From Dehalococcoidia bacterium (GTDB lineage: Bacteria; Chloroflexota; Dehalococcoidia; JAUSIH01), in the NCBI GenBank assembly GCA_030648205.1, contig JAUSIH010000038.1, forward strand, positions 1 through 38,194: a stretch of 38,194 bases of DNA, given 5' to 3'. Made by a program: the position numbers and the translations under genes. A model generated the notes under the pieces. The model did not search any database, was not told where the DNA came from, and was given only the letters and a program-made list of their open reading frames with translations. Positions 30,055 through 35,496 of this stretch are shown here, piece by piece; within the stretch, counting starts at the first letter, position 1, and each line of letters begins with the position of its first letter.

Positions 30055-32094
30055 CTAAGCCGCTTTCCACTTCGGCCACGCGTCCAGCACCTTGATGTCG
30101 GCGTTCTCGGATATGACGGCAGCGAGCTTCTCCAGCCACTGTGCGTCCGGATGGCCGTCCTGCCGCGCTCTGGCGATGTTGTCGGACAGGCCCCATCCGG
30201 TAGAGCGTTCTCCCTCAGTGAGCAGCCTTTTCAGATTAGTGAGTGCCCTTTGTCGATCCGTAGCTGGCCCGTGGGCATATAGATAGGACCAACACTCAAG
30301 AGCCAGTTCGCGAACCTCTTCTAATTGGTTGCTAGCCAGAGCTTTGTTGAGAGTGCGCAGCCCCTCCCCTTTTCTTCCCTGAGCCAGGAGAAGGCCTGCG
30401 TAATTGCCGTTGTTGATAGCATTGTTGGGGTCTGCGGCCAGCGCGCGGCGATAGTGTTCCTCCGCCTTGTCGTAGTCCTTGCGGATATCTGAGAGGAAGT
30501 TTGCGTAGTTGCCCAAGTTGTTGGCATTGTTGGGGTCGGCGGCCAGCGCGCGGCGGTAGAGTTCCTCCGCCTTGTCGTAGTCCTTGCGGATATTTTTGAG
30601 GAAGAACGCGTAACTGCCGTTATTGGTGGCATTGTTGGGGTCGGCGGTCAGCGCGCGGCGGTAGTGTTCCTCCGCCTTGTCGTAGTCCTTGCGGATATCT
30701 TTGAGGAAGATCGCGTAATTGCCGTTAGTGTTGGCGAGGTTGGGGTCGGCGGTCAGCGCGCGGCGGTAGTGTTCCTCCGCCTTGTTGTAGTCCTTGCGGA
30801 TATTTTTGAGGAAGATCGCGTAATTGCAGTTAGTGTTAGCATTGTTGGGATCGGCAGCCAATGCGCGGCGGTAGTGTTCCTCCGCCTTGTTGTAGTCCTT
30901 GCGGATTTGATGGAGGAAGATCGCGTAATTGCCCAGAAGAGGCGCGGAGTCCGGGAGCTTTTTCAACCCCTCGAGGTAAAGCGCTTCCGCTTTCTCCGGG
31001 TCTGTTTTCTCCAGTCGGCCAGCTTGAATTGCATAGGTGAACCACCCTGTGAGCGAAGCGTCCGTCTTCTCGACGGCCTTCTTTAGTCGGGCGGCTCCAG
31101 GGACAGTTTCCGGCAAAGACAGTACGCGCTTGGATAGCTTCTCATAGGTTTTTCCGTATTCATCGAATACCGACTTGAATCGCTGGTCGTCCGGACGAGG
31201 AAGTTTGAAAGTGTCATGAATCAAAAGCATCAGCTCATCAAAGTCACGCTTTTGGACCCAAATAGCTTTGCGAGAGTCAAGCCATTGCCTGATCACTCCC
31301 TGAGGTTCTAGCTCACTGACCCAGAACACACTCAGGGGCAACGCCGCTGGTGGAAGCGCGTCGAGCATCTCAACGATACCTTTGTCGTTGCCGCCATAAC
31401 CGATGAAGATTAGCCCTCGGTCATGCAATAAGGGGCGGACACTATTCGCTATCACTTGCGGTAAGGTCGCGGTCTCCTGGAACGTATTGTGTGGAGAAAG
31501 ACGATGATCGCCATGAAGTTTCACAACCAGTGGCCGCATGCGAGCCGGCCTTATGTAGCTCGCAAGAGATTCATGATGAATCACTAAAGGGCGCGCTTCT
31601 GTGTACAGGTATAAAGCATCAGGGGCCAGATCATCAAAGTTCGTAGTCAGAACAACGTTGAAGCGCCCTTCATCCATGGCAATGAGATTAGCTAGCACGG
31701 CATATCCGAAGCCGGGGAATTTGCCTTCGCAAAGACGTTCTACTTCTCTCTGACGCTCTTCGAGGTTGAGAAAGAGCTTCTCCATGACCGCGCCATAAAG
31801 CAGTGCCATGCGAGACAAGTCACTACCTGGGAATTGTTCACGCGCCCAACTCTCCAAATCCTTCCTCTCGGGCGCACGCAAGTCCCTAAGGCGTGGAAGC
31901 CAATCTTCTTTGACCAGTGTGCCAGCATCAGGGATGCCGGAGGATATAGAGCACCCAGCGCCAATGAAAAGGGCGTAGCGTCTTTCTGGACGCTTGATAG
32001 AGTCGTGAATGCGTCTGACAAATTCCTCAGCATCCATTTTGTGCAGTGGATTGCTAGAAGGGGCAGAGACTCTCTTTTTGCGCCGCTCGGTCAT
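30055..32094 (-). CDS. SIR2-TPR protein, candidate NAD-depleting defence protein
   Basis: A 679-residue protein. The N-terminal SIR2_2-type domain (about 35-290) has YALFIGAGCSISSGIPDAG (GAGxS motif), VLTTNFDDL (Asn152, Asp154), VVKLHGD (His194) and FIGYGGNDKGI. Five near-identical 35-residue TPR units (residues 384-558) and a degenerate sixth follow, then a helical C-terminal domain. SIR2 domains fused to sensor repeats act in anti-phage abortive systems by destroying NAD+; the catalytic Asn and His positions look intact. The ATG at 32094 lies five bases after the stop of the upstream luciferase-like gene, with GAGAGG overlapping that stop. It is more AT-rich than its neighbours, suggesting acquisition. 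Confidence 0.82.
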   Translation of the reverse strand: MTERRKKRVSAPSSNPLHKMDAEEFVRRIHDSIKRPERRYALFIGAGCSISSGIPDAGTLVKEDWLPRLRDLRAPERKDLESWAREQFPGSDLSRMALLYGAVMEKLFLNLEERQREVERLCEGKFPGFGYAVLANLIAMDEGRFNVVLTTNFDDLAPDALYLYTEARPLVIHHESLASYIRPARMRPLVVKLHGDHRLSPHNTFQETATLPQVIANSVRPLLHDRGLIFIGYGGNDKGIVEMLDALPPAALPLSVFWVSELEPQGVIRQWLDSRKAIWVQKRDFDELMLLIHDTFKLPRPDDQRFKSVFDEYGKTYEKLSKRVLSLPETVPGAARLKKAVEKTDASLTGWFTYAIQAGRLEKTDPEKAEALYLEGLKKLPDSAPLLGNYAIFLHQIRKDYNKAEEHYRRALAADPNNANTNCNYAIFLKNIRKDYNKAEEHYRRALTADPNLANTNGNYAIFLKDIRKDYDKAEEHYRRALTADPNNATNNGSYAFFLKNIRKDYDKAEELYRRALAADPNNANNLGNYANFLSDIRKDYDKAEEHYRRALAADPNNAINNGNYAGLLLAQGRKGEGLRTLNKALASNQLEEVRELALECWSYLYAHGPATDRQRALTNLKRLLTEGERSTGWGLSDNIARARQDGHPDAQWLEKLAAVISENADIKVLDAWPKWKAA
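30421..30945 (-). repeat. Five tandem 105-base units encoding TPRs
   Basis: Each unit encodes NYAIFL..IRKDYNKAEEHY and RRALAADPNNAN with few changes; the DNA is also nearly identical between units. Such identity favours copy-number change by recombination. Confidence 0.85.
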
Positions 32095-32099
32095 ATACC

Positions 32100-33119
32100 C
32101 TACCTCTCCGCGCCCGCGGGCAGCCGCTTGATGACCTGCTCCGTCAGCTTGATCTTCTGCATCATCTCCGCGTGCGTCAGCCCCGGGTACTGGATGCGCA
32201 GGTTGATGTGGTTGAACCCCAGCTCCCTGTACCGCAGTATCTCGTTCGCGCACTCCGCCGGGTCGCCCAGCACGAACGTGTCCTTCGCCAGCGCCTCGAA
32301 GTCGCCGAGCAGCTTCTTGTCGTCCTCCGGCAGCGACGCCTGCAGCCCGTGCTCCGCGTACGCCTCCCACTTGCGCCGCATCCCCTCGCGGCCTAGCTCC
32401 ACCGCCTCCGCGCGCGTCCGGCCCACCGAGTACTCGCGGCTGAACACCATCTCCTTCGGCGGCCACGGCTTGCCGACCTTCTCCAGCTCCTCGCGGTAAA
32501 TCCCCACCTGGCGCTTCACCACGTCGTACGTGCCGAACGGCGCGATGTACACCGCGTCGCCCATGCGCGCGGCGCGGCGGATGGCCGGGTCGCTGTTCGC
32601 GGCGATCCAGATGGGCGGGTACGGCTTCTGCAGCGGCTTCAGCGTCGGCTTCGCGCCCGTGATGTTGAAGAACCGCCCGTGGTGCGTCACCTCGTCCTCC
32701 GTCCAGAGGCGCTTCATCAGCGTCAGCGACTCCTCGAAGCGCGGCGCGCGGTGCTTCAGGCTCACGCCGAAGAACTCGAACTCCAGCGGCCGATAGCCCA
32801 GTCCCAGGCCGACGCGCAGCCGACCCTCGCAGGCGTAGTCCAGCGTCGCCATCTGCTCCGCGACCTCCACGGGGTTCAGCAGCGGCAGCAGGATGACGCC
32901 CGTGTTAAGGAGCATTTTGCCCGTCTCCGGCGCCAGGCGCGCCAGCCACGGGATGACGTTGAAGTACTGGAACGGGTGGATGACCCAGTGATGCCCGATG
33001 GAGATGCGGCCAAAGCCGTGGTCGCGGGCGGCGCGCACCTGCTCCAGCATCTCGTTCCAGTGCTGGTCCGGCGGCTTCCCCGCGAGTTGCCCCGGCCCCA
33101 TGTTCATGCCCACAATCAT
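32100..33119 (-). CDS. LLM-class (luciferase-like) flavin/F420-dependent oxidoreductase, paralogue 1
   Basis: A 339-residue (beta/alpha)8 luciferase-like monooxygenase. It shows LEQVRAARDHGFGRISIG, LLPLLNPVEVAEQMATLD, GRLRVGLGLGYRPLEFEFFG, HGRFFNITGAKPTLKPLQKP and FVLGDPAECANEILRYRELG. The cofactor may be FMN or F420; the sequence does not decide. Start: ATG at 33119 after GGAGATAA. It is 73-base-scale similar in DNA to paralogue 2 in its central part. Its stop is followed five bases later by the SIR2-TPR gene. The substrate is unknown; such enzymes oxidise or reduce a wide range of small molecules. Confidence 0.88.
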   Translation of the reverse strand: MIVGMNMGPGQLAGKPPDQHWNEMLEQVRAARDHGFGRISIGHHWVIHPFQYFNVIPWLARLAPETGKMLLNTGVILLPLLNPVEVAEQMATLDYACEGRLRVGLGLGYRPLEFEFFGVSLKHRAPRFEESLTLMKRLWTEDEVTHHGRFFNITGAKPTLKPLQKPYPPIWIAANSDPAIRRAARMGDAVYIAPFGTYDVVKRQVGIYREELEKVGKPWPPKEMVFSREYSVGRTRAEAVELGREGMRRKWEAYAEHGLQASLPEDDKKLLGDFEALAKDTFVLGDPAECANEILRYRELGFNHINLRIQYPGLTHAEMMQKIKLTEQVIKRLPAGAER

Positions 33120-33135
33120 GGAGTTATCTCCTGTC

Positions 33136-33250
33136 CTCGGATACCTCATCCCCTGGCCCCTTCTCCTCGCAGGAGAAGGGGAAGAAACTAAATCTGGGGG
33201 ACGCCCCCAGACCCCCGGCAGGGACGCCGTCCCTTGCAACCCTGCACTGC
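33136..33250. repeat. Composite intergenic repeat, copy 4
   Basis: CGGATACCTCATCCCCTGG, CCCCTTCTCC-TCGC-AGGAGAAGGGG, a GGGGGACGCCCCCAG hairpin and a CAGGGACGCCGTCCCTTG module. This is the cleanest copy in the window. Confidence 0.8.
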
Positions 33251-33264
33251 CTGGGCCAAACGCC

Positions 33265-33341
33265 CGCTCGTGGTGAGCTTGTCGAAGCCATGAGCGGTGG
33301 ACAAGTAGCCCGCTCATCCTGAGCCTGTCGAAGGACGAGCG
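33265..33341. repeat. Repeat family C, two copies
   Basis: CGCTCGTGGTGAGCTTGTCG with AAGCCATGAGCG (33265-33296), and CGCTCATCCTGAGCCTGTCG with AAGGACGAGCG (33311-33341). They lie between the two luciferase-like genes. Confidence 0.75.
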
Positions 33342-33353
33342 CCTGACATCCGG

Positions 33354-34364
33354 TTACCCCTGCGGCAGCCTCTTGATGACCTGCTCGCTGAGCTTGATGC
33401 GCTCCATCACCTTCTCGTGCGACATCCCCGGGTACTGCAGGCGCAGCTTCATGTGCGTGATCCCCGCGATATCCCTGTACCGCAGTATCTCGTTCGCGCA
33501 CTCCGCCGGGTCGCCGACGATGAAGGTGTCCTTCGCCATCGTGTCGAACTCGTCCAACAGCTTCTTGTCCTTCTCCGCCAGCGAGCCTTGCAGCCCATGC
33601 TCGGCGTACGCCGCGAACTTCTCCACCATGCCCGCTGCGCCGTCCCGCACCGCCTCCGCGTGCGTCCGCCCCACCGAGTACTCGCGCGCCATCGGCACCT
33701 CTTTAGGCCAGGGCTTGCCTTCCTCTTTGAGCGTCGCCTTGTAAAGCTCCAGGTGCCGCTTGAGCACGGTTACGTTCTGGAACGGTGACCAGAACGGCGC
33801 GTCGCCCATGCGCGCCGCGCGTCGCGTCGCCGGCTCGCTGTTCGTGGCGATCCAGACGGGCGGGTACGGCTTCTGCAACGGCTTCAGCGTCGGCTTCGCG
33901 CCCGTGATGTTGAAGAAGCGCCCGTGATGCGTCACCTCGTCCTCCGTCCAGAGGCGCTTCATGAGCGTCAGGGCCTCCTCGAAGCGCGGCGCGCGGTGCT
34001 TCAGGCTGATGCCGAAGAACTCGTACTCCAGGGGCCGATAGCCGAGGCCGCAGCCGAACTTCAGCTTGCCGCCGCTCATGATGTCCAGCGTCGCGAGCTT
34101 CTCGGCCATGTCCACGGGATTCACCAGTGGCAGCAGGACCACGGAGGTGACGAGCGTCATCTCCGGGACCTCGCCGTTGATGCGCGCGAGCCAGGGAATC
34201 AGGCTGAAGTATTGGAACGGGTGGATGACCCAGTGCGTGCCCACGGACACGAAGTCGAAGCCGTGGTCGCGGGCGGCGCGCACCTGCTCCAGGTGCTCCT
34301 TCCACTGCTGCTCAAGGGGGTACGGGTGCAGGACGACAGGCCCCATGTGAAACCCGACGTGCAT
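33354..34364 (-). CDS. LLM-class (luciferase-like) oxidoreductase, paralogue 2
   Basis: A 336-residue paralogue of the downstream gene. The blocks KHRAPRFEEALTLMKRLW, TEDEVTHHGRFFNITGAKPT and LKPLQKPYPPVWIATNS are nearly identical to paralogue 1, whereas the N- and C-terminal parts differ more. GGAGGTGG precedes the ATG at 34364. It is the first gene of the leftward group, with a repeat-filled gap before paralogue 1. The pair probably acts on related substrates. The cofactor (FMN or F420) is undetermined. Confidence 0.88.
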   Translation of the reverse strand: MHVGFHMGPVVLHPYPLEQQWKEHLEQVRAARDHGFDFVSVGTHWVIHPFQYFSLIPWLARINGEVPEMTLVTSVVLLPLVNPVDMAEKLATLDIMSGGKLKFGCGLGYRPLEYEFFGISLKHRAPRFEEALTLMKRLWTEDEVTHHGRFFNITGAKPTLKPLQKPYPPVWIATNSEPATRRAARMGDAPFWSPFQNVTVLKRHLELYKATLKEEGKPWPKEVPMAREYSVGRTHAEAVRDGAAGMVEKFAAYAEHGLQGSLAEKDKKLLDEFDTMAKDTFIVGDPAECANEILRYRDIAGITHMKLRLQYPGMSHEKVMERIKLSEQVIKRLPQG

Positions 34365-34497
34365 GACGCCACCTCCGGATGGAATGCCTGGATTATAGCG
34401 CAGGCGGCACGCCAGCACACGGATGGTCGGCATTGCGCCTTCGTCGGACGTTTCCTCAGCCCGTTGGCCGTCGTATCATGGGAAGATTGGAGCGACT

Positions 34498-34836: not shown

Positions 34837-35097
34837 TCAGGAAGCGGAAGGGAGGCGCTTCACAATGGCGGAGCGCACCTCCGCGGTGGTCGGAAAGCGG
34901 CCCGTGCGCACTGTGGAATAGACCAGCTCCCCGTTGACGGTGACCTCGAAGCGTCCCTCCTCGCCGGGGACGAGCGTCAGGGCGGACACCTGCTCACCGA
35001 ACTCGCGCAGAAGCTCTTCCGCCAGCCTGGCGGCGCGCGGCAGGTAGTTTCAGGGCAGGCAATACTCAATCTGGATGGCTAGCTTCTGCGCGGACAT
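34837..35097 (-). CDS. SelW/Rdx-family selenoprotein with in-frame UGA
   Basis: From ATG 35097 the minus strand reads MSAQKLAIQIEYCLP, then TGA (35050-35052), then NYLPRAARLAEELLREFGE, through FEVTVNGELVYSTVRTGRFP to a TGA at 34837-34839: 86 residues with selenocysteine (U) at 16. Cys13-x-x-U16 is the redox motif of the SelT/SelW/Rdx thioredoxin-like family, and the part after the UGA continues the family fold, including the conserved TGRFP. A hairpin CCGCC-AGGCT-GGCGG starts 16 bases after the UGA. It has the position and loop of a bacterial SECIS. GGAAAG precedes the ATG. It lies 52 bases after rpsT, probably cotranscribed. Selenocysteine machinery is not in the window. Confidence 0.85.
35014..35028 (-). 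promoter_or_regulatory. Candidate bacterial SECIS hairpin
   Basis: Within the coding sequence just after the UGA, CCGCC and GGCGG pair around AGGCT (loop-adjacent A/U can extend the stem). The loop starts 21 bases after the UGA. In E. coli fdhF the SelB-binding loop AGGTCT stands at a similar distance. Confidence 0.6.
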
Positions 35098-35149: not shown

Positions 35150-35458
35150 CTACTTGCTGCCCGTCTTGGCCGACGCCTCAGCCGTGGCCGCGCCCGCCAG
35201 TGCGTTGAGCTGATGCATCAGACGCGACTTCTGCCGGGAAGCCTTGTTCTTGTGAATGATGCCCTTGGTCCAGGCCCTGTCCAGGGCGCGCACGGCGCGG
35301 GCCACGGCTGCCGTGGCGTTCTCCGTGTCCTTGCTCTGGATATAGCTCCGGGCGATACGCACGTGCGTCCTGACGGCGGAGCCGATGGGCTGGTTGCGAT
35401 GCTCCCGGCGCACGGACTTGCGGTGCGCCTTTTTCGAAGAAGGGGACTTCTTGGCCAA
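35150..35458 (-). CDS. rpsT: 30S ribosomal protein S20
   Basis: A 102-residue S20. AKKSPSSKKAHRKSVRREHR at the N-terminus, IGSAVRTHVRIAR in the middle, and WTKGIIHKNKASRQKSRL with MHQLNAL near the end match the family. The start is TTG at 35458: GGAGGT stands 5 bases before it, while the upstream in-frame GTG would place this site inside the coding region. S20 binds 16S rRNA early in small-subunit assembly. The C-terminal tail (AGAATAEASAKTGSK) is a short extension. Confidence 0.95.
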   Translation of the reverse strand: MAKKSPSSKKAHRKSVRREHRNQPIGSAVRTHVRIARSYIQSKDTENATAAVARAVRALDRAWTKGIIHKNKASRQKSRLMHQLNALAGAATAEASAKTGSK

Positions 35459-35496
35459 GGGGACCTCCTCCACTCGAGGTGAAAACTCTTGCGTCC

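Follow-up and report, generated by a model that had tools for sequence, protein, structure and literature searches.

The window, by which we mean the whole stretch of 38,194 nucleotides analysed here, makes up contig C38 of a genome of 2.69 Mb, which is assembled in 120 contigs and 95% complete; no family-level relatives of the host were present among the sampled genomes. On the minus strand we found a gene of the SelW/Rdx family with rpsT immediately upstream of it, and the two genes are possibly co-transcribed. A RelA/SpoT gene also lies upstream on the same strand, and two genes for luciferase-like monooxygenases lie downstream (Table 1). The monooxygenase genes are adjacent and similar to each other, which is likely to reflect a tandem duplication. 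We also noticed a gene whose product carries a SIR2-like domain followed by TPR repeats and matches the PADLOC models SIR2-pAgo-associated and PDC-S65; it is a candidate anti-phage protein, and its true start is probably internal, at about residue 125, because the upstream part of the frame overlaps a monooxygenase gene. Searches of the window with Rfam and ARAGORN gave no matches.

Table 1. Position and basis of the features described in the window.
Feature	Position	Strand	Basis
SelW/Rdx-family selenoprotein gene (predicted)	34837..35097	minus	ATG to terminal TGA, 86 residues, Sec16; translation with TGA=U and family matches
UGA codon predicted to specify selenocysteine	35050..35052	minus	CxxU motif (C13-L-P-U16); aligned codons of class relatives
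Bacterial SECIS hairpin (predicted)	35019..35033	minus	stem of 5 bp, CCGCC/GGCGG, closing the loop AGGCU (alternatively 6 bp closing GGC); energy and covariation
rpsT, ribosomal protein S20	35150..35473	minus	Pfam PF01649, 1.4e-21
Luciferase-like monooxygenase gene	33354..34433	minus	
Luciferase-like monooxygenase gene	32100..33317	minus	
SIR2-like/TPR protein gene	30055..32466	minus	PADLOC models

When TGA was translated as U, the SelW gene gave the product MSAQKLAIQIEYCLP-U-NYLPRAARLAEELLREFGEQ...RLPSAS or, with a longer stretch after the selenocysteine written out, MSAQKLAIQIEYCLP-U-NYLPRAARLAEELL...RLPSAS. The internal TGA occupies 35052..35050 and the terminal one 34839..34837, and the length of the relatives suggests that this second UGA ends the protein. 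The frame contains a single internal UGA, at residue 16, which is the redox position of the CxxU/CxxC motif, and the codon aligns with the cysteine of the homologues. Translation together with the Pfam match to Rdx (PF10262, 5.6e-23, residues 8-78) thus confirmed the full-length SelW-like frame that the first-pass annotation had described on this strand, and the 70 residues past the UGA, where that annotation saw continuing homology, proved to be intact and conserved. The Rdx / SelT-SelW-SelH similarity extends across the whole domain. The product also matched NCBIfam NF041051, 'SelT/SelW/SelH family (seleno)protein', with 88.5 bits, just over the cut-off of 88, as well as TIGR02174 (71 bits) and the solved structure 2fa8 (8.8e-14), so that the family match is far from chance. 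Homology to 2fa8 and other structures leads us to expect a thioredoxin-like fold. At 19 sites of the window a largely open frame has a TGA near a Cys codon; SelW alone was a recognisable known selenoprotein, the other sites being judged by eye.

Under the standard code, the sole open part of the SelW frame is a C-terminal 50-aa fragment with a GTG start (34837-34989), and for this reason ordinary gene callers would lose the active site. The practical point is that the gene would be truncated by standard-code callers. The description of the gene as unannotatable by default is nevertheless too strong, because NCBIfam models already name the family '(seleno)protein'. The literature on how the NCBI pipeline treats selenoproteins yielded nothing usable.

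Directly after the UGA, the sequence can form the hairpin CCGCC-AGGCU-GGCGG from bases 17-31. It starts at the 17th base and there are therefore 16 bases between, in agreement with the AGGCT-loop hairpin that had been proposed from the sequence. According to its quotation in PMC13188914, the bSECIS model demands a loop of 3-9 nt with G within its first two positions, a stem of 4-16 bp, a spacing of 16-37 nt and an energy of at most -7.5 kcal/mol. The window hairpin falls within all of these limits, with a loop of GGC or AGGCU, a stem of 6 or 5 bp, a spacing of 21-22 nt and an energy of -8.6 kcal/mol. The fold energy of the window region was not unusual when set against shuffled sequences (z 0.66), and region fold energies were so alike in Sec and Cys forms (mean z -0.03 and 0.10, respectively; P = 0.34) that this measure alone did not separate the two. 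On resampling of synonymous codons, the window hairpin taken by itself ranked only 0.23, so the case for a real element rests on comparison across relatives.

In most Sec forms a hairpin occupies the same fixed place with a different sequence, for example CCGUC-AGUUU-GACGG, CCGCC-UGGAU-GGCGG or CCACC-CGUGC-GGUGG; in one Sec subgroup, of the ARAAWTAQE type, the stem is displaced by a few bases. Most Cys homologues have a weak form of the hairpin or none. Under the published constraints the mean hairpin energy was -7.96 in Sec forms vs -4.02 in Cys forms (P = 2.6e-9), and the mean rank on synonymous-codon resampling was 0.26 vs 0.61 (P = 1.7e-10), although both P values are optimistic because the rows share ancestry. 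Covariation was examined in 56 aligned Sec sequences. Pairing was preserved in 92.9% of cells, and two-sided changes were seen in four of the five pairs (30 cells); none of 500 shuffles reached this level, and with the partner shifted by 1-3 columns the values were at most 63% and 14 cells. The second loop base was G in all 106 Sec sequences, whereas 15 of 95 Cys forms did not have this G. Because of it, Sec forms invariably encode Trp, Ser, Gly or Arg there. The chances seem about even that the RNA constraint of the SECIS element on the residues that follow shapes the evolution of the SelW protein, in which case loss of selenocysteine would release the constraint.

We then consider the genome outside the window. 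The host encodes a UCA-anticodon tRNA-Sec (69 bits), whose fold shows an acceptor stem of 8 bp and a long variable arm, together with selA (564 bits), selB (a 661-codon open frame, 351 bits) and selD (366 bits). All four components of the pathway were thus recovered, and the objection that the genome might lack selB and tRNA-Sec does not hold. The selD gene has an in-frame TGA of its own (...LARCAG-U-AAKFSPEDL...; locus L017 near 1531-1533, within G000:C53:41321-42244) and is therefore itself a selenoprotein gene, a second one that is independent of SelW.

A scan of genome contigs with the single protein gave no confirmed relatives, whereas a scan with an alignment succeeded. The closest relatives found were about 55% identical. 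A SelW relative was present in 153 of the 393 genomes of the class and selA in 254 of them. We aligned the codons of 152 non-redundant SelW rows from 121 class genomes. At the redox codon, 54 rows had TGA, 97 had a cysteine codon (87 TGC and 10 TGT) and one had GAT, while neither TAA nor TAG occurred there in any of the 152. Among 80 named loci from Chloroflexota, Gemmatimonadota, Latescibacterota, Planctomycetota, Thermomicrobiota and other phyla, 72 carried TGA and 8 TGC/TGT; the search patterns for these loci came mainly from Sec forms, and the share is therefore no census. On a tree of 213 rows, with few columns and many unresolved forks, the distribution of Sec and Cys forms agrees with the branching: seven changes were needed, compared with 70.7 for shuffled labels. 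The 54 genomes with the TGA form had selA in 46 cases, and tRNA-Sec was found in seven of the other eight. Over the 121 class genomes, selA was not significantly associated with the TGA form (46/54 vs 49/67, Fisher P = 0.12), the association being weak since selA is present in most of the class. In one genome of the same class, G211, which has a TGA-form SelW, neither selA nor tRNA-Sec matched at the thresholds used; this may be a matter of genome incompleteness.

Several arrangements of SelW genes were seen in passing. Locus L074 (G381:C10:159756-160650) holds a tandem pair. Its first copy has the UGA. The second has the sequence YSLSD, in which Ser and Asp (GAT) stand where the two redox residues would be, and is apparently a redox-dead paralogue. 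In several class genomes a Sec-form and a Cys-form gene are neighbours, at L067 and L103 (family f33) and at L146, L153 and L154 (family f15).

One could argue that TGC or TGT became TGA in a Cys-form gene, either by an error in sequencing or assembly or by a nonsense mutation that arose recently, since the genome is fragmented and Cys-form relatives do exist. We regard this as extremely improbable. A base error at this codon is very unlikely because the 54 related class copies carry TGA there, and the same is true of the 72 named loci; moreover, the window gene has a hairpin that most Cys forms are without, and the genome holds the whole Sec machinery. Equally hard to credit is a genome-wide reassignment of UGA to an ordinary amino acid such as Trp or Gly with no selenocysteine involved. 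Two genes with UGA read-through, selW and selD, would fit such a code, but in both of them the UGA coincides with the established Sec site. The genome also has a dedicated tRNA-Sec with selA and selB, the large genes nearby are open frames that need no UGA read-through, and the SelW gene ends in UGA where its relatives end. That the locus is a pseudogene, or encodes only a short N-terminal peptide with UGA as the stop, is scarcely conceivable: the GTG fragment is formally open, but the sequence past the UGA bears no other lesion and the relatives have kept the hairpin.

Protein homology runs unbroken across a UGA at the catalytic site, a conserved hairpin lies just downstream, and the genome has a full set of Sec genes. 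Together these make it almost certain that this locus encodes a SelW/Rdx selenoprotein whose UGA would be read as selenocysteine, as first proposed. From what is established for this pathway, SelD would make selenophosphate, SelA would convert Ser-tRNA-Sec into Sec-tRNA-Sec, and SelB bound to the hairpin would bring Sec-tRNA-Sec to the ribosome, where the UGA would be read as selenocysteine. In thiol redox reactions of the finished protein, the Cys13-x-x-Sec16 pair would most likely form a reversible selenenylsulfide.

In 2006 a list of bacterial selenoproteins already included SelW-like proteins (PMC1794560). Together with SelD, they had the widest distribution of the selenoproteins in the marine data of the Global Ocean Sampling (PMC2398784), and the family's status as a common bacterial selenoprotein thus dates from 2006-2008. 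The bacterial SelW-like selenoproteins (PF10262; NF041051, TIGR02174) share with the window gene the length, the CxxU motif, the in-frame UGA and a SECIS hairpin directly downstream, and the window gene differs from them in sequence only. Cys-form Rdx proteins of known structure, such as Atu0228 (2fa8) and SAV_2001 (3dex), align over nearly their full length and have the same redox loop, but they carry Cys where the window protein would have Sec and need no SECIS. Mammalian selenoprotein W (2npb) belongs to the same family (match 5.3e-05) and has the CxxU/C redox motif, whereas its eukaryotic SECIS is located in the 3' untranslated region and not in the coding sequence (PMC2398784).

The window SelW gene is thus a well-supported, securely identified but ordinary new member of a widespread bacterial selenoprotein family. 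Its occurrence here is unsurprising, because the family is common in marine surveys, selA is frequent in the class and an NCBIfam model exists. The current view of selenocysteine biology is unchanged by this gene. It adds one secure selenoprotein, from an uncultured bacterium in a Dehalococcoidia family that had no other genome in the search. Across the Dehalococcoidia and neighbouring phyla, SelW-type selenoproteins occur widely and share a hairpin at a constant distance.
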